A DNA stretch of 39,724 nucleotides from a virus. The stretch is from IMG/VR virus record IMGVR_UViG_3300024262_000093, positions 1 through 39,724 of that record; one strand, given 5' to 3'. The notes under the pieces were generated by a model that worked only from the letters and a program-made list of their open reading frames with translations, was not told the DNA's origin and made no database searches. Position numbers and translations under genes: made by a program. Positions 3,422-39,724 of the stretch are shown piece after piece. How positions within the stretch are numbered: position 1 is the first letter of the stretch; each line of letters starts with the position of its first letter.

Positions 3422-3440
3422 TTTCCTTGCCCTCCTTTTT

Positions 3441-3504
3441 TAGCCTGTCTCTTCAGTGCCAGGTGGCTAATCCTGACAGACGCCCCGAAGGGCGTTTCGA
3501 CTTA
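3441..3504. repeat. Duplicated intercistronic structured element, copy A
   Basis: About nine in ten of its 64 bases match copy B at 5167-5229. It contains a 6-bp hairpin, ACGCCC/GGGCGT (3480-3495), with a four-base loop that reads UUCG on the minus strand. Next to it is a second stem, CTGTC (3445-3449) with GACAG (3475-3479). The element starts on the minus strand at the stop codon of the upstream gene and ends just before the ribosome site of the next gene. Confidence 0.75.
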
Positions 3505-5149: not shown

Positions 5150-5166
5150 TTCTCTTTGCCCTCCTT

Positions 5167-5229
5167 TAGCCTATCTCTTCAGTGCCAGGTGGCTACTCTG
5201 GTAGACGCCCCGAAGGGCGTTTCGACTTA
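5167..5229. repeat. Duplicated intercistronic structured element, copy B
   Basis: It matches copy A at 3441-3504, with the CCCCGAAGGGCG hairpin unchanged. In the neighbouring stem, CTGTC/GACAG has become CTATC/GGTAG. On the plus strand this keeps pairing through one C:G to T:A exchange and one A:T to G.T wobble. It lies between the stop of the 97-residue gene and the ribosome site of the 72-residue gene. Confidence 0.75.
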
Positions 5230-11922: not shown

Positions 11923-12117
11923 ATGGACTTTGGAGATATCTTAATAAAATGCACTCGACCTGTAGTAACCATCATCTGCATGGGAACTTTAGCACAAGTA
12001 ATAACACAGCAGATAGAAATGCCAGCATGGGCGATTAGCCTATTGAGTGGCGTTGTTTTGTGGTGGTTTACTACCAGAACAATAGAGAAGGTGAAGGATG
12101 CTAAGAAAACCGACTAG
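11923..12117 (+). CDS. Small membrane protein, 64 aa (holin-like?)
   Basis: It has two likely membrane segments (VVTIICMGTLAQVI and PAWAISLLSGVVLWWF) and a charged C-terminus (KVKDAKKTD). Size and topology fit class II holins, but the gene lies among virion genes, so a virion membrane-interacting protein is also possible. It overlaps the next membrane protein gene by 20 bases, so the two probably work as a pair. Confidence 0.6.
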   Translation: MDFGDILIKCTRPVVTIICMGTLAQVITQQIEMPAWAISLLSGVVLWWFTTRTIEKVKDAKKTD

Positions 12118-12334
12118 TTTTTTCCATTACCTCGGTGGGTTGATAATCGCCTGCCTGTTTTGGCAAGGGGATATCCTCTATGCTGTCTCATTGCTTGTTT
12201 CCTTTGGAGTTTTTGAGTTCTGGCAAGAGCACAAAATAAAGGATACTGGCGCGCTGGACTTCCTTGACTTATTGCAGGCATTGTTTGTGGGAGGTGGTAT
12301 TTTGGTGATACTTAGGTTGTGCAATATTTTATAA
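12098..12334 (+). CDS. Small membrane protein, 78 aa
   Basis: It has two or three hydrophobic segments (YLGGLIIACLFW, ILYAVSLLVSFGVFEF and LLQALFVGGGILVILRL), separated by a polar FWQEHKIKD loop. A membrane protein of this type is seen in other phages without a defined role. It overlaps the preceding membrane protein gene. It could be a holin partner. Confidence 0.6.
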   Translation: MLRKPTSFFHYLGGLIIACLFWQGDILYAVSLLVSFGVFEFWQEHKIKDTGALDFLDLLQALFVGGGILVILRLCNIL

Positions 12335-13212: not shown

Positions 13213-13656
13213 ATGCTAGCCAGGATAAATCCTTCGGGCACTCATATCCATAAGGGGAAGCTAAAGGTGCGGGTCGATATCTACCCTGACGCCACCAGCA
13301 AGACCTTTGCTATGCACCATGTTGACAAATATGACCGTGAGCCTACTGAAGAGGAGCGGGCAGACAAGAATTTGCCGGCTAAAATCGGCACTCACAAAGA
13401 GGACAATCCTTGCCTGTGCCACTTTATCGTGATTGACGAGGACATGACCAGGACTCAGTTAAGTAACCTGGTGATGGTTACATTTAACAAGACCGCTGTT
13501 GATGAACTAGACGATGCTCTAAGCAAAAACGACAGGAGCAAAGTGTCTCAGGTCATGCGGCCCAAGAAAGGCATCGCCGGACTCGTCAAGCAGGGGAACA
13601 TCGAAGATGTGAACGCCAGGTTCAAAGATTTGGAGGTTACTGTTGGCGTTAATTGA
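13213..13656 (+). CDS. Conserved late protein, 147 aa, unknown
   Basis: A charged alpha/beta protein (KLKVRVDIYPDATSKTF, then CLCHFIVIDEDMTRTQL). No family is recognised. It lies between two structural genes and overlaps the next by 14 bases, so it may be a structural or assembly protein. The start ATG lies nine bases after the preceding stop, with GGGGAT as a weak ribosome site. Confidence 0.65.
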   Translation: MLARINPSGTHIHKGKLKVRVDIYPDATSKTFAMHHVDKYDREPTEEERADKNLPAKIGTHKEDNPCLCHFIVIDEDMTRTQLSNLVMVTFNKTAVDELDDALSKNDRSKVSQVMRPKKGIAGLVKQGNIEDVNARFKDLEVTVGVN

Positions 13657-14998
13657 TATTGGGGCTGCTGCGATTGATAGAGATTCCAATGCCGCCGATG
13701 GCTACACTACTATATCCCTAGATAACTATGCCAATGATACAGGTTCACTTGATACCTTTGAAATCTGGGCACTTAGTAGTCTGGCTAAATGTAAGGTTGG
13801 GACATTTTCTGGTAGTGGAACATCGTATGATGACCGTGACTATGAAACAATAGGTTCGGTATCTTCTGGTTCAAAGCAGACATTTTCTGGATTGGATTGT
13901 GATGTTGAGACTGGGGATTTTATAGGGGCTTATTGGACTGATGGTGCAATTGAGAAAGCCAGCGCAGGTGGTGCAGGGTACTATAAAGTTAGTGGAGATA
14001 AGTTTGGGGATGGAGCAAATACTTATTCACTCAGCGAAGATAGAGTTAATAGTCTCTATGGCACAGGGGCAACGGGTGTAACCAATTATCCCATATCGAC
14101 ATCGTCAGATATTACCGTGTCAGCCACTGTAGCAAGAAAGACAGCCTATACTAGGGCTATGTCAGCAGGATTAACTGCGGCTATCACTGTCGCAAAGTCT
14201 TTTGGGCGAAAAGTTGCAATTTCAACAGGATTAACTGCGGCTGTCACAGTTGACAGGGCTTTAACATATACAAGGGCTATGTCAGCAGGATTAACTGCGG
14301 CTATCACTGTCGCAAAGTCTTTTGGGCGAAAAGTTGCAATTTCAACAGGATTAACTGTCTCTGCCACAGTTGACAGGGCTTTAACATACACGCGGGTTAT
14401 AGCAGCTAATCTAGTAATTGCGGTTAATGTGGCAAGGAAAAGGGCAAGGTCTGTTTCTACCACTGCTGGTCTTACAGTTTCCACAACAATATCTATAGCA
14501 AAGGCGTTTGTTAGAAGTGCAATAAGCAATCTGGCATCAACGGTTACGGTAAATAGGGAAGCTACATATTCAAGGGCTTCTACGTCTGATTTAACCGTAT
14601 CAGTCATAGTGGCAAAGAAGAGGAACAGAACAATAATCGCATCTCCAGGGTTAGTTGTTTCGGCTACCATATCAAGAACAATGGCATGGGGGAAAGCTAT
14701 AACAGCAGGATTAACTTCAGTTGTCTCAGTGTCTAGGATGTGGAACAAGGCAATTACTACTGTAGCGGGGCTTATTATATCAACCACGGTTTCCAGAATA
14801 GCAGCTTATACAAAAACACTTTCTCCTGAGCTGGTAATTTCTGTAAGTGTTACTAAAACATTTGCAGTATTGGGGAGGATAATAAGTGCAGTCCTCAAAG
14901 CTACCCATTTGCATAAAACAGAGCTTAAGGCTATGCACCTGTATACTGCAACCCTGGAAGCTACCCATTTATACAGAGCAACATTGGAGGCAAAATGA
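13643..14998 (+). CDS. Virion protein with twelve or more 20-residue beta repeats
   Basis: A 451-residue protein. Residues 1-155 form a Gly/Ser/Thr-rich beta domain (GSGTSYDDRDYETIGSVSSG). From about 160 to 410 come roughly twelve repeats of 20 residues with the pattern GLT-x-x-ITVAKSFGRKVAIST, in which two short strands are split by a basic turn. Three shorter units (ATHLYRATLEA) close the protein. Such regular repeats suggest a beta-solenoid or fibrous appendage used in host attachment. The start is probably the TTG at 13643 inside the previous gene. Repeat number may vary between phages through recombination. Confidence 0.75.
   Translation: MALIDIGAAAIDRDSNAADGYTTISLDNYANDTGSLDTFEIWALSSLAKCKVGTFSGSGTSYDDRDYETIGSVSSGSKQTFSGLDCDVETGDFIGAYWTDGAIEKASAGGAGYYKVSGDKFGDGANTYSLSEDRVNSLYGTGATGVTNYPISTSSDITVSATVARKTAYTRAMSAGLTAAITVAKSFGRKVAISTGLTAAVTVDRALTYTRAMSAGLTAAITVAKSFGRKVAISTGLTVSATVDRALTYTRVIAANLVIAVNVARKRARSVSTTAGLTVSTTISIAKAFVRSAISNLASTVTVNREATYSRASTSDLTVSVIVAKKRNRTIIASPGLVVSATISRTMAWGKAITAGLTSVVSVSRMWNKAITTVAGLIISTTVSRIAAYTKTLSPELVISVSVTKTFAVLGRIISAVLKATHLHKTELKAMHLYTATLEATHLYRATLEAK
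14153..14357 (+). repeat. Recent 120-bp tandem duplication inside the repeat gene
   Basis: Positions 14153-14237 are identical to 14273-14357 over 85 bases, with a period of 120 bp, i.e. two protein repeats of 20 residues. The other repeats in the gene are diverged. This copy therefore arose recently and shows how the array grows. Confidence 0.9.
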
Positions 14999-26413: not shown

Positions 26414-26631
26414 AAACACCTGAAAAGATTACCATGCCAAAAGGGTGGGTTACTCGTGCCTTGTCTGCACAAGACTTTGCTAAACTTGACGAGAAGGGTA
26501 AAGAGAAGCTGAAGAAAGATGTTGAGGATAGCGGTGGAAGTTATGACGAGTACGAGGCTCATGCAAAAAAGATGATGCCTAGGATAGTTTCACCACGGGA
26601 GATTAAATGGCGTATTCGCCCGACGATGTAA
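26410..26631 (+). CDS. Small basic protein, 73 aa
   Basis: A Lys-rich helical protein (KLDEGK-like repeats, DEYEAHAKKMMPRIVSP). The ATG at 26410 overlaps the connector stop (ATGA) and has GGGGGT upstream; a TTG four codons earlier is less likely. It overlaps the tail gene by 25 bases. Function unknown. Confidence 0.65.
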   Translation: MKTPEKITMPKGWVTRALSAQDFAKLDEKGKEKLKKDVEDSGGSYDEYEAHAKKMMPRIVSPREIKWRIRPTM

Positions 26632-29180
26632 CCATTGTTGATGGGAACGGAGAGCGGTTCCACTATATGCTGGCAATAAAGGACAGCATCAAAAAGTGGT
26701 CTGTTGCTGACACCGCCCTCTTGCCTCCAAGTCTCTTAACAGGTTCAGCTTCGTATGCCAACTATTCACCAGAGAGCAAAATCTTCATTGAAGAGACAGA
26801 CTGGCGGAAGGGATTTCAAGACAAGATTTGGCAGGAGCATGGTCGCTATTACACTTCTTCGTGTGACTGTAGGTTTAGAAACCGCATAATGCTACCTCCA
26901 GAACAACAAACTGCCATCGCTGCGCCTACCGGTACAGATAACACCCGTGCTATTGCAGACGGGGGCATGGAGACATGGACTGATAGTTCTAACCTCACCC
27001 ACTGGTCAAAGACTGGTGACGGGACATTATCGAAATCTACTGATGGGCATGGAGGAACTTATTCAGCTAAACTTAGCGGTGGCAGCGGAAACTCAATATC
27101 AATATATCAGGACTTGCCATTTACTTCAGCAGACAGAGGCGCATCGGTTACAGTAACGTTCTGGGGGAAGAGAGAAGCAGGCACTGATCATTCCTATGGG
27201 CAGATAGATGATGGAGTTGGGACCACCGAAACAGATATTACCTCAACTTCCTTTGCTTCATACACAATCACTAGGACACTAGACGACAACGCCACGCGAT
27301 TAAGGGTGTTGTTTTATTCAGAAGATGAAGCAACTTATGGAGATACACATATAGACGATGTTTCAATTACTCGTAGCACGGTAAACCTCGGTACAACCAC
27401 CGACCTCATAAACTTTGGTGACGATATCGTTTATGGGAGTGGGTGCACTTTGTGCAAGATAGACTCAGGCTCAGCAGCGATAGTCATAGACATGGGAGCA
27501 GAAATCACAGCGTTGTGTGTTTTTGAAGACAGGCTTTATATCGCCTTAGGATTGACTAATGCTTATTGGTACACCTCAGACTTAACGACGTTTACAAAGT
27601 CATCTTTTACGGGGAGTGAGAGTTCTGATAGTGCAACGGATACCACGGCGGCATATTCTGATTCAGCAACCAGCATTGCAGTAACGGACTACAGTGTATT
27701 CTCGGCAGATGATGTTTATGCAAGATGGGAAGATGAGGTTATTTTATTAAGCGATAGGTCTGCCTCGCCTATGACAGTTGTTAGAGGGTCGTTGGGGTCA
27801 ACCGCTAAAGCGCATGCTTCAGGAACTACTATCACTGAATTATCGGGCGTATCAGGAGCACAGTTTATGTCCAATGTGAATAGTAACTTTCATATAAACG
27901 ACACAGCTAACACTATTCGCATCTCGGACAATCCAATAAATAATGGTACGCCATTTTCAACTGCCTACACCATGCCAAACTCGAGCTATAATATTACGGG
28001 ATTGAAAGACGACATCGGAGACGGGGTTATCTACGTTAGAAAGCAAGACCAGGTTTACTATCTCAGCGGAGCAGAGGTTCTGCCCGTCGTGCCGTCGTGG
28101 GCGAGCGAAGCATCTACCACTAACTCATACGGTATAGACGGCTGGCAAGGCAGATTGTATGTTCCTGCCGGGGTTAACTCATTCTATGAATATGACGCTG
28201 GTACGGTAACGGACATATCGATAGTCAAGGAAGCGTTCGGAGATACCGACTTTGATGGCAAGATTTTATGCACCGCATGGGACACGGAGTATTTGTATGT
28301 CGTGGTAGAGAACGGGGCTACTTGTGAGATTTTATCAGGATCGTGGCGAAGTATCGGCACGACAGACTGGTACTGGCATCCCTTATATTCTATTACCTCA
28401 AACGACTACACCTCGGCTTTAATCTCCTCGGTAGATGGCTCAAAGAGGCTTTACCTCGGCACGGGCACGGCAGCCGATGGGATAGACCTGTTCATTGTGC
28501 CGTCAAGTTATTCTGATGTATTGAAGGAAAGTTCCTACGAAGTGGAAGCCAGCGGAGACTGGGTGTCTCCGTGGTATGAAACGGACTTCGCAGCTAACGA
28601 TAAGATGTGGATAAACCTCTACATCACTACGCTCAATTTCACGGGCATCACTTCTATCAGGGTTTACTACCAGAAGAAGGGGGATGCGGACTGGACAGAG
28701 TTGGGATACTGTGATGAGGGGGAATACACTTACGTTGCTTCTCCCTGGTCGTTCACCTATCCCGACGAGATAACTAACATCTTCTCCATGAACGCTGTGT
28801 CTCAGAGAGTAAGGTTCAAGTTTACCCTCGCCACCTCGGACAGCAAACTCTCTCCAATAGTCAATGCCTTTTCAATAGAATGCAGATTAGTCCCATCAAT
28901 AGCAGGGCAGTCTATCAAGAAGAAGCAGATAAGGTTCGAGGTTAGAGCTGGCGGAGACACCCCGCGCTCCACGGGCGTGATGGGAAACACCAGAGCGGCT
29001 AATGTCGTGACCGAGTTAGAGACATTATCCAAGTCTCTGGACGTCCTGAAAGTCACCCTCCTTGACGGAGTGGAGCGGACTGCCTTGTTTGAGCCGGACG
29101 GATTTGCCATCTCCCCCTATATCCACGAGAAAACGAAGCCAAGCGAGATAATCGTGTCCTGTAGCCTAAGGGAAGTGTAA
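26607..29180 (+). CDS. Large tail protein with carbohydrate-binding-like and propeller-like parts
   Basis: An 857-residue beta-rich protein, probably the tail tube/nozzle or spike. Residues about 115-255 read as a jelly-roll carbohydrate-binding module (DGGMETWTDSSNLTHWSKTG at the start, GDTHIDDVSI at the end). Residues 265-650 show repeated blades of the type 'ALCVFEDRLYIALG' and 'KILCTAWDTEYLYVVVENG', like the propeller of T7-type gp12 nozzle proteins. The C-terminus is another beta sandwich. The propeller is inferred from repeat spacing. The binding module suggests that it contacts host glycans. Confidence 0.7.
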   Translation: MAYSPDDVTIVDGNGERFHYMLAIKDSIKKWSVADTALLPPSLLTGSASYANYSPESKIFIEETDWRKGFQDKIWQEHGRYYTSSCDCRFRNRIMLPPEQQTAIAAPTGTDNTRAIADGGMETWTDSSNLTHWSKTGDGTLSKSTDGHGGTYSAKLSGGSGNSISIYQDLPFTSADRGASVTVTFWGKREAGTDHSYGQIDDGVGTTETDITSTSFASYTITRTLDDNATRLRVLFYSEDEATYGDTHIDDVSITRSTVNLGTTTDLINFGDDIVYGSGCTLCKIDSGSAAIVIDMGAEITALCVFEDRLYIALGLTNAYWYTSDLTTFTKSSFTGSESSDSATDTTAAYSDSATSIAVTDYSVFSADDVYARWEDEVILLSDRSASPMTVVRGSLGSTAKAHASGTTITELSGVSGAQFMSNVNSNFHINDTANTIRISDNPINNGTPFSTAYTMPNSSYNITGLKDDIGDGVIYVRKQDQVYYLSGAEVLPVVPSWASEASTTNSYGIDGWQGRLYVPAGVNSFYEYDAGTVTDISIVKEAFGDTDFDGKILCTAWDTEYLYVVVENGATCEILSGSWRSIGTTDWYWHPLYSITSNDYTSALISSVDGSKRLYLGTGTAADGIDLFIVPSSYSDVLKESSYEVEASGDWVSPWYETDFAANDKMWINLYITTLNFTGITSIRVYYQKKGDADWTELGYCDEGEYTYVASPWSFTYPDEITNIFSMNAVSQRVRFKFTLATSDSKLSPIVNAFSIECRLVPSIAGQSIKKKQIRFEVRAGGDTPRSTGVMGNTRAANVVTELETLSKSLDVLKVTLLDGVERTALFEPDGFAISPYIHEKTKPSEIIVSCSLREV

Positions 29181-29182
29181 AG

Positions 29183-29305
29183 ATGCAGCCTACAAACAAA
29201 TGTTCACTCGTAAGAAATGCGCAAGGTGGCGTTTTACTATCAATAATGAACAATCACACAGGGCGTATGGTTACGACCCTAGTTTTAGAGGAGGGAAACA
29301 CATGA
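29183..29305 (+). CDS. Small protein, 40 aa
   Basis: It begins MQPTNKCSLVRNAQGGVLLS. It has AAGGGA upstream, starts two bases after the tail gene stop, and its stop overlaps the ATG of the phospholipase-like gene (ATGA). The tight coupling argues that it is translated; whether the peptide itself matters is unknown. Confidence 0.55.
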   Translation: MQPTNKCSLVRNAQGGVLLSIMNNHTGRMVTTLVLEEGNT

Positions 29306-30090
29306 AAAGGTTTCTCGGAATAATTCTGGCCATGGTTGCGGTATTTTTATCCGCAACTCCTTGTTTAGCCTGGGGGCCGGATACTCATTTGGAGATTGAT
29401 AAGTCTCTGGGCGACTCTAACTTATTCAAACAGGGAAGCGTATTTCCTGATTGCGCACTGGGACTTCATGTAGCCGACGGACATTTATTTGCTCCGTGTC
29501 CTGAGAATTACGCGGAGATACATAATACATTCCACTCCAGGGAGTTTGCGGATATCTTATGGATTACTTGCCAGGCTAATGACGTGCAAGAATTTGCAGA
29601 GGGTTGGATAGCTCACACGCTAGGCAGCGACCCGATAGAGTCGGCATACTCACAGGACAAAGTTTCTCAGGGCGCACCCGACGGAGCAGACTGGTGCGTT
29701 GACTATTTCTATTGTGAGAACACTATGGACACAACAATAGGCTCACCGGTGAGGGCTGCTTTGCAATCAGCCATAGATCAGACTGACCTCGACTGGACTA
29801 TCTCTGCTGATGGCTGGCTGGATATAGAGTATGTTTACATGATTTATTTGGACTTTGGAGAGTGGTGGTATGAGATTTACGAGTACGACGTTGTGGCGCA
29901 AGAATGGTACTCAGACCATGAGTGGTATCTCCAATCCTCAATAGCTCACTCCACAGTTGAGATATTAAGTTACCAGGGTTCGGCTACGTTAGCAGACGTC
30001 AACCAGTGCACTAACTGGTGGCAATATGGTGGATACTTAGAAATGAGCGACGTATTGAAGGTGGTAAATCTTTGGTTGTATCCGAGGTGA
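29302..30090 (+). CDS. Secreted zinc-dependent phospholipase C-like protein
   Basis: A 262-residue protein with a signal peptide (KRF, a hydrophobic core, cleavage after CLA) that would leave Trp24 as the new N-terminus. In zinc-dependent phospholipase C and S1/P1 nucleases the N-terminal Trp binds zinc. Further ligand-like residues appear in order: His29 (WGPDTH), Asp50 (FPDC), His74/His78 (IHNTFH), His105 with Asp110 (GWIAHTLGSD) and a HxxxE pair, His216/Glu220 (AHSTVE). The His105-Asp110 spacing is one residue longer than usual. The likely reaction is hydrolysis of membrane phospholipid head groups outside the cell. It sits where an endolysin is expected, beside a membrane-anchored coiled-coil protein. 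A nuclease of the S1/P1 class is the alternative. Confidence 0.75.
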   Translation: MKRFLGIILAMVAVFLSATPCLAWGPDTHLEIDKSLGDSNLFKQGSVFPDCALGLHVADGHLFAPCPENYAEIHNTFHSREFADILWITCQANDVQEFAEGWIAHTLGSDPIESAYSQDKVSQGAPDGADWCVDYFYCENTMDTTIGSPVRAALQSAIDQTDLDWTISADGWLDIEYVYMIYLDFGEWWYEIYEYDVVAQEWYSDHEWYLQSSIAHSTVEILSYQGSATLADVNQCTNWWQYGGYLEMSDVLKVVNLWLYPR

Positions 30091-30093
30091 ATT

Positions 30094-30270
30094 ATGAACA
30101 GCGAGATAAGGATAAGATATTGCGAGTCCTGCCACAAAAAGAAGATGGTGGCTGAACTTCAATTAGAAAGAAAAACCATCTGGTTGTGCGAGAAGTGCTT
30201 GGAAAAGCCATTTCACCAGTTGAGGGCGAAACGCGAATCCCTGGAGGGAGATAGGCCGGCGACACCGTAG
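30094..30270 (+). CDS. Small zinc-ribbon protein, 58 aa
   Basis: It carries CESCHKKK near residue 10 and CEKCLEK near residue 32, a compact two-knuckle zinc ribbon, followed by a basic and Pro-rich tail. It starts four bases after the preceding stop, with GAGGTG upstream. Role unknown. Confidence 0.7.
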   Translation: MNSEIRIRYCESCHKKKMVAELQLERKTIWLCEKCLEKPFHQLRAKRESLEGDRPATP

Positions 30271-30296
30271 GACACTCTATTTCTGAGGAGGCACAT

Positions 30297-30602
30297 ATGA
30301 TCGATCCTGGACTGACGGCAGCAGCAATTACTGGAGGCGTCGCTATCATTGGCGCGGCTTTCTGTCTCGGAAAGTATGCGGGAAGGATCTCCCCCATCAA
30401 CGAGGCTCGGAAGGTACTCTCTAATAAAGTAGATGATTTGGCTCAGGTGGTGACACGCCTCGACAGAACTAACGGTATCCTGGCCGCCCAAGTCAAGGCG
30501 ATTAACGAGACCCTTAATAATGGGATTGTAAACCGTATCAATGGCTGCATCGAAGCCCAGGGCCGCATGGACGAGAGGATAAAAGACTTGGAAGGCAAGT
30601 AA
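30297..30602 (+). CDS. Membrane-anchored coiled-coil protein (lysis-associated?)
   Basis: A single N-terminal membrane segment (AAAITGGVAIIGAAFCLGKY) is followed by a helix with heptad spacing (KVLSNKVDDLAQVVTRLDRT, IEAQGRMDERIKDLEG). The layout recalls XhlA-type or spanin-like lysis proteins. Its neighbour two genes upstream is the phospholipase-like protein, so a role in host lysis is plausible. The ribosome site is GAGGAGGC. Confidence 0.6.
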   Translation: MIDPGLTAAAITGGVAIIGAAFCLGKYAGRISPINEARKVLSNKVDDLAQVVTRLDRTNGILAAQVKAINETLNNGIVNRINGCIEAQGRMDERIKDLEGK

Positions 30603-30730
30603 TGGACAACGAGCTAGTTGCAATCAAGGTTGAAATTCAGGAATTAGAGCGGAGGCTAACCCTCTTGAAAAAGAGGATTAAGGAGTGGGAGCATTGGAAT
30701 TATCTGGAGGGCATAAAAGAGAAGGATTGA
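30602..30730 (+). CDS. Small coiled-coil protein, 42 aa
   Basis: A short amphipathic helix (MDNELVAIKVEIQELERRLT, then KKRIKEWEHW) starting at a TAATG overlap with the membrane-anchored coiled-coil gene. It may pair with that protein. Function otherwise unknown. Confidence 0.6.
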   Translation: MDNELVAIKVEIQELERRLTLLKKRIKEWEHWNYLEGIKEKD

Positions 30731-31063: not shown

Positions 31064-31072
31064 TGAATATGT

Positions 31073-31240
31073 GCCATGTGGCGGAATAGCTGACACCGTA
31101 TGGGGACCAGAAAGACGCTAGCTCACCGAGAGGCAGGAGAACTGGGAGTGAACCCGGCTAGCCGTGTGACGACACGGTAACAAACTCGCAAGAGGGAAAT
31201 CTCGGCCCTCGTCCTTGGGGTGTAAGTCCCCAGGCATGGC
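31073..31240 (+). ncRNA. Structured RNA with tRNA-like ends, 168 nt
   Basis: GCCATGT (31073-31079) pairs with GCATGGC (31234-31240) like an acceptor stem, and TGGGG-TGTAAGT-CCCCA forms a T-arm-like hairpin. The T-loop lacks the standard TTC, and no anticodon arm is found. Inside are further stems: CTGGG/CCCGG, CCGTGT-GACG-ACACGG (31162-31177), CTC-GCAA-GAG with a GNRA loop (31185-31194), CCGAGA/TCTCGG, and GCTAGC with GCTAGC. It has no protein-coding potential and lies nine bases before the initiator tRNA. It may be a tRNA interrupted by an insertion, a degenerate tRNA, or a separate phage RNA. Confidence 0.5.
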
Positions 31241-31249
31241 AACACATAT

Positions 31250-31335: not shown

Positions 31336-31369
31336 GGGATGCAACCTTCGGGTTGTGCCCCCTTTTTTT
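31336..31369 (+). terminator. Rho-independent terminator after the tRNA
   Basis: GGGATGCAACC-TTCG-GGTTGTGCCCC (one mismatch, two wobbles) followed by seven T. It ends the rightward late transcription unit. Confidence 0.85.
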
Positions 31370-31406
31370 GTGTGTTATAATAAATATGCGTTAAGACCGC
31401 TGCAAA

Positions 31407-31439
31407 GGGGCATGACTTTTGGGTCATGCCTCTTATTTT
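31407..31439. terminator. Hairpin terminator at the convergent junction
   Basis: GGCATGAC-TTTTGG-GTCATGCC followed by TCTTATTTT on the plus strand. It serves rightward readthrough. On the minus strand it is followed by a weaker T-tract and may also end the early operon. Confidence 0.7.
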
Positions 31440-33851: not shown

Positions 33852-34010
33852 TTATTCTCTGCCGGCACGCTTGATAAGGCTGCCTCGATATCCTGGCAAC
33901 GGGGCTATCACCCTCTTCTCTTCAAGCCGCTCCTGGATGAGCCTGTTCTCTTTGATGGTCGATTTTACTCTCTCGGGCCGGATAACCAGCCTAATAAATG
34001 CCTCGTTCAC
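33852..34010 (-). CDS. Small basic protein, 52 aa
   Basis: It reads MNEAFIRLVIRPERVKSTIK and continues helical and basic to AGRE. The GTG start has AGGAGGTAAC and overlaps the stop of the cytosine methyltransferase (GTGA). It fills an otherwise empty gap in the operon. Function unknown. Confidence 0.65.
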   Translation of the reverse strand: MNEAFIRLVIRPERVKSTIKENRLIQERLEEKRVIAPLPGYRGSLIKRAGRE

Positions 34011-34702
34011 GTTACCTCCTTTTCAATAAGCGCCCCTTTAACTGCCTTTGCCATTGCTCTCCCCATTGGAATAGGAACTCCGTTCCCTATTACTTTTCGT
34101 TTTCCTTGTACTGTAAAAGGCGACTCGCTAAGAAAATCCTCTGGTAATCCCTGCAATATCGCTATATCTCTAATAGTTGGCTGCACATCCCATTGGGAGC
34201 CGCCTCTTCCCACTGGGCCATGGCCAGCCAAAACGGTTGCGCCAACCTCTTGTTGCTCAAATAGACAAAACTCCACGTTTAATCTAGCCTCTTTAGTGCT
34301 GCCAAAGGTAAACACTCTCTCCCTTTTCTGTACGCCGCCAACCCAACGATTATTTACTAAAATAGACTGAGTAAAATAACCAACAACCTGAGGATGCGGC
34401 GCTTGAGGTACGTTCTCCATCAGCCACCAATCCGGCTGCGCCTCTTCAACGCCTCTCTCAAACTCTGGAATCATGTTGCCGTGTTTTTTGCCGGCGAGAG
34501 GATTTAAAAATCGCAACCTGCTGAAGCATTGGCATGGTGGCCCGCCTATCACTCCACCAAATACTCCTGCCGGCGGATGAAATGTTTTTATATCTCCACC
34601 CCATAGCAAGTCAGGACCACGCACCACACAAAATCCATACTCCTCGAAGGCTCGCCCCAACAGGTCAATCCCGGGAAAGATGCTCAGTACCAGGTTATTC
34701 AT
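34007..34702 (-). CDS. DNA cytosine-5 methyltransferase
   Basis: A 231-residue C5-methyltransferase. Motif I is FPGIDLLGRAFEE (a variant of FxGxG), motif IV is GGPPCQCFS with catalytic Cys57, motif VI is LMENVPQ, motif VIII is QKRERVF, and motif X is near RKVIGNGVPIPMG. It is short because the target-recognition region is small. No cognate restriction enzyme lies nearby, so this is an orphan enzyme that likely protects phage DNA. The ATG at 34702 is chosen because GGAGGT precedes it; the longer frame would overlap the upstream gene. Confidence 0.93.
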   Translation of the reverse strand: MNNLVLSIFPGIDLLGRAFEEYGFCVVRGPDLLWGGDIKTFHPPAGVFGGVIGGPPCQCFSRLRFLNPLAGKKHGNMIPEFERGVEEAQPDWWLMENVPQAPHPQVVGYFTQSILVNNRWVGGVQKRERVFTFGSTKEARLNVEFCLFEQQEVGATVLAGHGPVGRGGSQWDVQPTIRDIAILQGLPEDFLSESPFTVQGKRKVIGNGVPIPMGRAMAKAVKGALIEKEVT

Positions 34703-34956
34703 TCCACCTCCATCGCTTCTTTGAAATGCCTGAATGCCCGTTCTGGGGTGTCCTCGCCCCATGCCTCAATCCAAAGGTCAAACGTATCACTACACAGAAA
34801 CTCCATAACCTCCTCTGGGCATAGCCGGTGGCAATCCTTTGTGATTTTGTAGTCCCTCTGCGCCCTCTCGTAATTTGTATAGTCATGCACCGACTCCGCT
34901 AGCACTGCACTCGCTAGCCCGTTGTACCCTGGACTCCGATGCTCACCGTGCCGCAT
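34699..34956 (-). CDS. Small phage protein, 85 aa
   Basis: It starts MRHGEHRSPGYNGLASAVLA with GAAGAGG upstream and has a basic N-terminus, a helix (ESVHDYTNYERAQRDYKITK) and an acidic, aromatic end (MEFLCSDTFDLWIEAWGED). This resembles small helical proteins of Gram-positive phages with a terminal 'FF-SD-F' pattern and unknown role. It overlaps the methyltransferase start. Confidence 0.65.
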   Translation of the reverse strand: MRHGEHRSPGYNGLASAVLAESVHDYTNYERAQRDYKITKDCHRLCPEEVMEFLCSDTFDLWIEAWGEDTPERAFRHFKEAMEVE

Positions 34957-37578: not shown

Positions 37579-38118
37579 CTAAACTTCGTTGCCCCAACAA
37601 TCCCACCCTTCTACTCGCTGTCTTGCAAAGAGTTCTATTCGGGGTAAATCGCCACACAGTCTGACTATTCTTTCTCTTGCTTCGTCAGGTTTTTGGCTAT
37701 GCTCTCTAACCCGTTCTGTTATAAGTTGATGAACGCCTGCATTTATTCTTTTTGGGTGTCCTTTTACAGCCAACCAGCAATCCTCTGTATTTGATCGAGT
37801 CCAATAACCCATCCCCCAAAACCAACTATCTGCAACCTTGTTCTTCTTTGCCCAACAAAACGCCTTTGTTTTGTATGTAAATCCCCATGTCTTGATTACG
37901 TCTAGTGCTTCCTGTAAACATGGGGGAGTAGTCCATAAAAATAAAGCACAATTGATATCCGCTAGATTGAATACAGGCAAGTCCTTAATATCCCCTATGC
38001 TCATAACAGGATACTTGTTACCAACCCATCTGCTTGCAGTCCTGTCAGCATAATTCTTGTAATGCCACGGCGGGTCAGCATAGATTATCTGATATTTCTT
38101 GTCTGGGAATGGTATCAT
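37579..38118 (-). CDS. MT-A70 family DNA N6-adenine methyltransferase
   Basis: A 179-residue enzyme with the MT-A70 catalytic DPPW (residues 15-18, context IIYADPPWHYKNYADR). It continues with LFLWTTPPCLQEALDVIKTW, FCWAKKN and the KGHPKR segment that are typical of the phage members. These methylate adenine in DNA from S-adenosylmethionine. No target-recognition domain and no restriction partner are present. It lies just behind the MBL gene, with AAGGAGGTAG upstream. Confidence 0.93.
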   Translation of the reverse strand: MIPFPDKKYQIIYADPPWHYKNYADRTASRWVGNKYPVMSIGDIKDLPVFNLADINCALFLWTTPPCLQEALDVIKTWGFTYKTKAFCWAKKNKVADSWFWGMGYWTRSNTEDCWLAVKGHPKRINAGVHQLITERVREHSQKPDEARERIVRLCGDLPRIELFARQRVEGWDCWGNEV

Positions 38119-38127
38119 TCTACCTCC

Positions 38128-38821
38128 TTATGCTATCCTCACTATTTTGCCTGTTACGCCTTGGATTGTTCGCCGGAAGCCCTCAGCGTCTGAGTTGTTA
38201 TTTGATAGGTGTAGCAGCCATATCTCCTCAACCTGGCTCAGGTCGTTTGCCTTCAGGAAAGACACCAAGCTTTCTAAACTGAGGTGTGAGTTTATTACTC
38301 TGCGCCATAGCTCCCTGTCCAAACCACCGGAGGCTATCAATCGCTTTACTATCTCCCTTGAGTAGTTGCACTCAATCATGACGTGCGTTAGTCCGTTGAA
38401 CCTGTTAGGGATGTATTTCGTATCCGTGGCGTAAAGTATCTTGGCTTCGTGATTAGCCAGGAGAAAGCCGAGCGGCTCCGCGGCGTCGTGGATCGCGGCA
38501 AAAGGTTTAATCTGCCAGCCGCCCACCTGGAACTGCTCAAACGCTCTAACGATGTGGACCCGGTGGCCGGTAATCTTCAGTGCTGCTGCCGTGCCCTCGG
38601 ACATGTAGCAGTCTATGCCGGAGCGCACCATTTCCCGAACCGCCTTGCAATGATCAAAGATGCTCGTGGCTGATAATGCAGCCCACGAGCTCTCCTACCT
38701 TGAAATTCAATCCTTGTTGGATACGCCGGAATGGGATGCCGGCCTCTAGGAGCAACGGAGTCTCTCCACCCACATAGTAGGCGTTGCCGCTGCTACCGGA
38801 GGCCAGCGCCTTTATTTCCAT
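38128..38821 (-). pseudogene. Metallo-beta-lactamase-fold hydrolase, frameshifted in the metal-binding motif
   Basis: The start codes MEIKALASGSSGNAYYVGGE, the beginning of the YycJ-like MBL fold, and runs to HEHL, then stops at TGA (38654-38656). In the next frame the sequence resumes as DHCKAVREMVRSG and continues through TDTKYI and NHxx-type segments (INSHLSLESLVSFL) to the end, with HLS at the C-terminus. Removing one T from TTT (AAA at 38656-38658 on the plus strand) restores HEHLDH, the HxHxDH zinc motif, and gives a 230-residue protein. Phage MBL proteins often follow RecT, as here (two bases apart). It is either a sequencing/assembly indel or a true inactivation. Confidence 0.85.
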
Positions 38822-38823
38822 GC

Positions 38824-39724
38824 TTAGAATCCCGGTCCCTCCGTCGGTTGTCGCTTTGTAGCCCTGGGGATAACAGGTTTGGGAGGCTCTTCCTTTTCGG
38901 GAGACTCTTCTACCCCTTCTTCTTCCGTGTCCCCTTCAAGGATTTCCCCCGTCTCTATGTCCACGTCGATGATGTCCCCGTTGGCGTTCTCCTCGATTTC
39001 CTCGGCGACCTCTTCCTCTGCCTGCTCCTCGTCGGACCTGTTAAAGTGCTCCAGGAAGAGATTACTGTCACTTGATGCATTGATGAACTTCTTACAGGCG
39101 CGGCTTATCACGGTGCGCTTGGCCATCTCGTCAGGGAATTGGGAGTGCGTTGACCCTGTCCCTTGCATCTTCGACTTGGCCCAAGATTTTCGGATCTGCT
39201 CTATGGTCATGATCTCGGTGTAGTCTGGCTTGCCGTTCCCAAACTCTATCACACAATAGGCGGCGATGATGTCTGCTCCCACGTTCTCAATCTTCTGCGT
39301 GTGCTTGGTGACGTCCTTCCGGTTGTGCTTAATCTCGTACTCGAACTCATCGCCCTTGTACACGACCTCCGCCCAGATGTCCGTAGCCCCTGCAACTCTT
39401 TCCGCTACCGCCATCGTCCCGAAGTATGACCGCTGGCATAACAGCTTCTTCCCGTAGGCTATGAAGTAGCACTGCTTCTTGCCCGGGTTCAATCCCTGAA
39501 CTGCCATATCCAGCAGGGCATTGGCGATGCTGGCCTGTGAACAAGCCCTCAGTACCGGCACATGGTTTTTGTCCTCGGTTTCCTGCAAGGCCAGCCATGC
39601 TGCCTTCAGCGCGTTCTCGATGCTGTAGTTGTCCGGTAGCCTCAACTCCCCGCGTTCGGTGAATTTCCTCAGTGTAGCGGTTGTTGATTTCACGATGTCG
39701 TAGGGTTTTGCTACTGCCTTTGTT
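38824..39724 (-). CDS. recT: RecT single-strand annealing protein, main part (N-terminus at 1-192)
   Basis: RecT promotes annealing of single strands and strand invasion for phage recombination. The sequence shows the family order: ENALKAAWLALQETEDKNHV, then SIANALLDMAVQGLNPGKKQ (the RecT core start) and CYFIAYGKKLLCQRSYFGTM. Next come YKGDEFEY and GADIIAAYCVIEFGNG, then TEIMTIEQIRKSWAKSKM and MAKRTVISRACKKFI. The C-terminus is a long acidic tail, common in RecT and thought to tune DNA or SSB binding. The frame runs off the right end and joins the left-end start at the equivalent base. The MBL gene follows after two bases. Confidence 0.95.
   Translation of the reverse strand, partial: TKAVAKPYDIVKSTTATLRKFTERGELRLPDNYSIENALKAAWLALQETEDKNHVPVLRACSQASIANALLDMAVQGLNPGKKQCYFIAYGKKLLCQRSYFGTMAVAERVAGATDIWAEVVYKGDEFEYEIKHNRKDVTKHTQKIENVGADIIAAYCVIEFGNGKPDYTEIMTIEQIRKSWAKSKMQGTGSTHSQFPDEMAKRTVISRACKKFINASSDSNLFLEHFNRSDEEQAEEEVAEEIEENANGDIIDVDIETGEILEGDTEEEGVEESPEKEEPPKPVIPRATKRQPTEGPGF
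39556..39724. repeat. Terminal direct repeat, right copy
   Basis: This is the counterpart of bases 1-169, identical over its first 126 bases and differing at four positions in the last 43. It supports circular closure; the two copies encode the same recT segment. Confidence 0.9.

Follow-up and report, generated by a model that had tools for sequence, protein, structure and literature searches.

The Bacillus cereus enzyme is the model of zinc-dependent phospholipase C (PF00882, Zn_dep_PLPC), a family in which most proteins, to our knowledge, are without a tested function. To leave its host, a double-stranded DNA phage is expected to require an enzyme that cuts the cell wall; we know of no enzymatic route of lysis that has the membrane itself as its target, so that such a route would be the first. 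S1/P1 nuclease (PF02265) and phospholipase C are placed in the same three-zinc clan, CL0368 (PMC4144908). By mechanism, the nearest precedent for a late phage enzyme attacking envelope lipids is mycobacteriophage LysB, a lipolytic lysis enzyme that acts after the endolysin to bring lysis to its end (PMC6116114); it is, however, an alpha/beta serine hydrolase (G-X-S-X-G) that works with a true endolysin, and its fold and chemistry are unrelated to those of the protein described here. No account of a phage lysing its host with a zinc phospholipase C was found in the full text of open papers.

The window analysed here is the whole IMG/VR virus record IMGVR_UViG_3300024262_000093 (39,724 bases), which comes from an uncultured phage. 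Bases 1-169 repeat bases 39556-39724 at 98% identity with a few population variants, and the overlap lies inside the RecT gene. Despite the linear class of the record in IMG/VR, this 169-bp end overlap shows a near-complete genome, circularly permuted or circular, and completeness matters because the original prediction, that a secreted phospholipase C-like protein takes the place of the endolysin, depends on an absent gene. That protein, P0001, is described by the following features.

29302..30090, + strand: P0001, a 262-aa secreted protein, probable divergent PF00882 (Zn_dep_PLPC) homologue (Shine-Dalgarno and ATG; hhalign against PF00882; signal peptide 1-23 and mature N-terminus Trp24 predicted)
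29371..29373, + strand: Trp24 codon, predicted mature N-terminus (zinc ligand in the PLC/P1 clan), from the sequence and from the W or F that aligned PF00882 proteins have in this position
29386..29631, + strand: putative conserved ligands His29, Asp50, His74/His78, His105 and Asp110 (WGPDTH ... FKQGSVFPD ... EIHNTFH ... FAEGWIAHTLGSD), from alignments and signature
29947..29961, + strand: His216-Glu220 (AHSTVE), candidate last ligand pair, placed by eye and not aligned by hhalign, resembling [AT]H..[VL]E of PF00882

Probable family and candidate metal site of the 262-aa protein

A strong Shine-Dalgarno sequence (GAGGAGGG) lies just upstream of the ATG at 29302, and no Shine-Dalgarno sequence was seen for the longer mechanical ORF from 29200. 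The N-terminal hydrophobic segment of P0001, in which the highest hydropathy over 17 residues is 2.36 from residue 7 onward, ends in CLA followed by WG, and the N-terminus as a whole (MKRFLGIILAMVAVFLSATPCLA followed by WGPDTH) looks like a Sec signal peptide. The pattern on which the original prediction of an exposed N-terminal Trp was based is thus present: the segment is a plausible Sec signal peptide, and its cleavage would expose Trp24. Residue counting likewise confirmed the ordered His/Asp/Glu set proposed for zinc binding, with W24, H29, D50, H74, H78, H105, D110, H216 and E220 each at the position given. The precursor contains 13 Trp and 16 Tyr, and the mature protein is very acidic, with a pI of about 4.

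Sequence searches of Pfam, PHROGs, NCBIfam and the PDB assigned P0001 to no family (HMMER: none). No relatives were found by tblastn and peptide-pattern searches of INPHARED phages, PLSDB plasmids, viral contigs and GTDB genomes; a search with a degenerate DNA motif pattern brought up nothing, or chance matches only. Weak matches in related phages (a 447-aa frame in L054/L066 and a 63-aa frame in L055) look like chance and were set aside.

For profile comparison, a PF00882 reference set was collected from Gemmatimonadota genomes, 113 of 150 of which carry at least one protein over the Pfam cut-off, and divergent members were added. The profile comprised 38 diverse bacterial members, the divergent ones having been chosen with a motif pattern styled like the signature test described below. 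Comparison of P0001 with this profile in hhalign gave 81% probability (score 40.6; E 1.2e-5, for one comparison), with the alignment running from Trp24. None of 100 shuffles (scores up to 22.5) and none of 300 unrelated real phage ORFs (up to 28.5) reached this score, and Pfam-level divergent PF00882 members used as positive controls scored 26-45 against the other cluster, a range that includes P0001. With a PF00882 HMM, P0001 ranked top of 2257 sequences, at a level short of HMMER significance. Addition of a phage PF00882 domain (from contig L151, below) to the profile lowered the result to 56% (score 35.1); a fall of this size after one added member means that the result depends on the profile, and that membership is probable, not certain.

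The order of motifs in P0001 is shared with Gemmatimonadota PF00882 proteins (W..TH, F..GS..PD, H, FA.GW..H, H...E), WGPDTH corresponding to WGP.TH, FKQGSVFPD to FLHGSLAPD or FLYGSIAAD, and EFAEGWIAHTLGSD to stretches like AFAWGWLSHVLGD. The signature W..TH ... F..GS..PD ... FA.GW..H, which was written after P0001 had been seen, occurs in P0001 and in 24 of the 38 PF00882 proteins, and in none of 3013 viral ORFs or 200,000 shuffles of P0001. The late writing of this signature and the motif-based choice of divergent members are caveats to the signature and profile tests. S1/P1 nuclease, although a member of the same clan as phospholipase C, has no profile similarity to P0001: a five-member PF02265 profile scored 12.3, and 43 of 60 shuffles scored as high or higher. 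Profile comparison therefore bears out the proposed homology to zinc phospholipase C and favours it over S1/P1 nuclease, and we consider it likely that P0001 is a divergent protein of the PF00882 zinc phospholipase C family. Comparing profiles with a varied set of cellular family members can thus place an orphan late gene.

Likeness to PF00882 extends over the signal peptide exposing an aromatic N-terminus, the W/FG..TH, F..GS..PD, H and G[WY]..H motifs, the order and spacing of the first ligands, and the profile match. H29, D50, H74 or H78, and H105 align in order and spacing with conserved PF00882 columns. Differences begin at the next ligands. The aligned PF00882 members have H-x3-D-x3-H, with both the D and the second H invariant, whereas P0001 has H105-x4-D110, which puts the Asp at His+5 instead of +4, and has no His after D110. 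H216-STV-E220 fits the final His-x3-Glu motif (compare AHLRVE in L133) but lies about 100 residues further on than in PF00882, behind a Trp/Tyr-rich insertion of about that length; an alternative alignment places DYFYCE, which is without His, at the final ligand pair. With the acidic pI and a similarity below Pfam detection, these features set P0001 apart from the family, and on the alignments the metal site is not canonical. AlphaFold models of P0001 had a pLDDT of 34 (single sequence) and 32 (with the L151 domain), both too low for the models to be usable.

With the patterns used, one other viral contig coding for a secreted PF00882 domain was found among 2.9 million contigs, L151 (IMGVR_UViG_3300036520_000011). 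Its 913-aa phage protein (4731-7472) adjoins the terminase and has a signal peptide, an N-terminal PF00882 domain (98% probability, full ligand set) and a long coiled coil. This protein resembles P0001 in being phage-encoded and in having a signal peptide and a PF00882 domain (probable in P0001), but differs in its canonical complete ligands, N-terminal Phe, coiled-coil extension and gene position, with 27% global identity and no significant BLAST match between the two. As judged from these patterns, phages seldom carry PF00882, although P0001 does not stand alone.

Late module, holin candidates and lysin searches

P0001 is the first gene after the last tail gene (857-aa tail protein, 26607-29180, with homologues in related phages). 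The genes that follow it, and the other candidate lysis genes of the window, are listed below.

30094..30270, + strand: 58-aa zinc-ribbon-like protein (weak zinc-ribbon matches only)
30297..30602, + strand: 101-aa protein with one N-terminal hydrophobic segment (hydropathy 2.04) and then a coiled-coil-like tail, candidate holin-like partner (phrog_1009, annotated unknown function, E=4.5e-4)
30602..30730, + strand: 42-aa coiled-coil-like protein (weak match to phrog_1193 'hemolysin', E=0.034)
11923..12117, + strand: 64-aa membrane protein with two hydrophobic segments, alternative holin candidate (phrog_3427 holin, weak, E=0.029)
12098..12334, + strand: 78-aa membrane protein overlapping the 11923-12117 gene, possible holin/antiholin partner (membrane segments)
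31340-31357 and 31405-31434, no strand assigned: terminator-like hairpins, end of the late operon (consensus matches)

The + strand module ends near 31340-31434, where it converges with a - strand module; three terminator-like sites were found against 2.6 expected from shuffles, so that these sites are suggestive only. No promoter for P0001 alone was seen in a consensus scan. The membrane-anchored coiled-coil protein said to follow P0001 at the end of the late operon was recovered as the 30297-30602 gene. The placing of P0001 in the endolysin position held in part: the gene lies late and near this holin-like gene, but the overlapping holin-like pair at 11923-12334, mid late module and 17 kb upstream, weakens the case for 29302-30730 as the only lysis module, and related phages are without P0001. 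Position near a holin-like gene is also the only likeness of P0001 to canonical phage endolysins (amidase, lysozyme, peptidase), of which it has no matching domain.

Pfam and PHROGs scans, run on overlapping groups of genes, covered the 62 called genes, with complete or nearly complete family lists for the orphan late genes and small early genes. None matched lysozyme, amidase, transglycosylase, peptidase or endolysin families, and direct searches for Amidase_2, Phage_lysozyme and Peptidase_M15_4 were negative here and positive in named control genomes. Neither the 1654-aa protein nor the 857-aa tail protein had a Pfam, PHROGs or PDB match supporting a hidden lysin. The observation that no peptidoglycan hydrolase can be recognised was therefore reproduced with endolysin profiles across the 62 genes of a near-complete genome. 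The 30 late genes scanned matched five PHROGs in total, however; Pfam and PHROGs are thus blind to most late genes, and the absence of a lysin is weak evidence.

Related phages were identified via the capsid gene and searched for lysins likewise. The closest had no recognisable lysin in their late regions (Pfam, the three direct families, and PHROGs among the first 25 of 100 families listed), and Amidase_2 was present in two distant ones. A P0001 homologue occurred in none of the related phages searched, which carry other short secreted or membrane genes at its place. P0001 is thus not a conserved lysis gene of the group, and since relatives with neither a recognisable lysin nor P0001 exist, the group must have a further way of lysing its hosts. 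From these comparisons, the missing lysin looks like a group-wide blind spot and not a consequence of P0001.

Possible roles of the protein

The explanation we prefer, to which we assign a probability of roughly 0.4, is that P0001 is a late secreted PF00882 enzyme attacking the envelope and helping lysis beside a lysin that the libraries did not recognise; action on the envelope during late infection is, on its own, a plausible if tentative proposal. The protein would be synthesised in the late phase of infection and leave the cytoplasm through the Sec pathway of the host; once the signal peptide was cleaved off, Trp24 would stand at the N-terminus as a ligand of a metal cluster. Outside the cytoplasmic membrane, the enzyme would most likely hydrolyse a phosphodiester-containing envelope component, for which phospholipid head groups are the first candidate, and would thereby weaken the envelope at lysis, helping the holin-like gene and a muralytic enzyme missed by the libraries. 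Even a modest reading of this kind adds to the phage repertoire a family that PHROGs did not recognise here.

It is somewhat unlikely, but compatible with family membership, that the enzyme serves something other than lysis, such as superinfection exclusion by envelope change, the scavenging of phosphate, or the breakdown of lipids or nucleic acid on the outer side of the membrane. Accessory (moron-like) genes commonly occupy the position that P0001 has behind the tail genes, and absence from all related phages searched, with other short secreted or membrane genes in the same place, is as expected of an accessory gene; against this, P0001 lies where the late module ends, two genes from the holin-like gene and apparently in the same operon, and the consensus scan gave it no promoter of its own. 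We think it less probable still that P0001 is catalytically dead or an unrelated secreted protein that only binds something in the envelope, its zinc ligands being partly coincidental. The shifted Asp, the missing conserved His, the long Trp/Tyr-rich insertion, the want of HMMER-level significance and the low pLDDT of both models would all fit such a protein, but the hhalign and signature tests reject chance, and the surviving ligands sit in a conserved motif context.

The original prediction went further, and suggested lysis by attack on membrane lipids, best suited to a host lacking a peptidoglycan wall. P0001 would then replace the endolysin in a peptidoglycan-free host and hydrolyse its membrane phospholipids, after or without a holin. 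If true, this would be an endolysin-independent enzymatic route, with a tailed phage dissolving the membrane of a peptidoglycan-free bacterium, and lipid-attacking lysis would point to viruses of wall-less bacteria, for example some Dehalococcoidia. The negative lysin searches across the 62 genes, including those for three families by direct search, speak for it, as does the existence of such hosts, since a lack of peptidoglycan is reported for part of the Dehalococcoidia (Dehalococcoides, Dehalogenimonas and later orders; PMC10284905). We regard it as quite improbable all the same. A lysin could be hidden among the late genes, most of which match no family, and the late regions of relatives, with neither a recognisable lysin nor P0001, indicate another lysis route in the group. 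Host indications also run against it: SbcC is closest to Aeribacillus and Bacillus phages and RecT to Aeribacillus and Cellulophaga phages, that is, to phages of Bacillota and Cellulophaga, which are walled hosts. Aeribacillus phage AP45 is the closest for both (45% identity for SbcC, 57% for RecT). Nothing points to a wall-less host, and no link of Dehalococcoidia to the phage was found.

Further features of the genome

The SbcC-like, metal-dependent hydrolase (beta-lactamase fold), RecT and MT-A70 genes lie at 197-2158 and 37579-39693, and the terminase is distantly cyanophage/T4-like. A Gemmatimonadaceae host inferred from a provirus was considered and rejected: the only related-capsid locus in GTDB is a 3-kb MAG contig at 37% identity, which is too distant. 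The genome carries two DNA methyltransferase genes, of C5-cytosine and MT-A70 type, at 34007-34762 and 37579-38118.

A 451-aa repeat protein (13643-14998) matches the PHROG 'major tail protein' (phrog_1696), and because of its repeats a 213-aa frame on the opposite strand (14146-14787) stays open as well. Directly before tRNA-Met(CAT), 31072-31247 (+) forms a stable RNA structure of 176 nt (-67.1 kcal/mol, z -2.7). Its closing stem (TGCCATG/CATGGCA) is tRNA-like, and a T-arm-like hairpin in it carries a non-canonical loop; the structure belongs to no Rfam family and has no match in INPHARED phages. Between small early genes lie two type II hammerhead ribozymes (Rfam RF02276; 47.5 and 42.6 bits) at 3439-3502 (-) and 5165-5227 (-), and related phages also carry hammerhead ribozymes in one or several copies (three in L066, one in L087).
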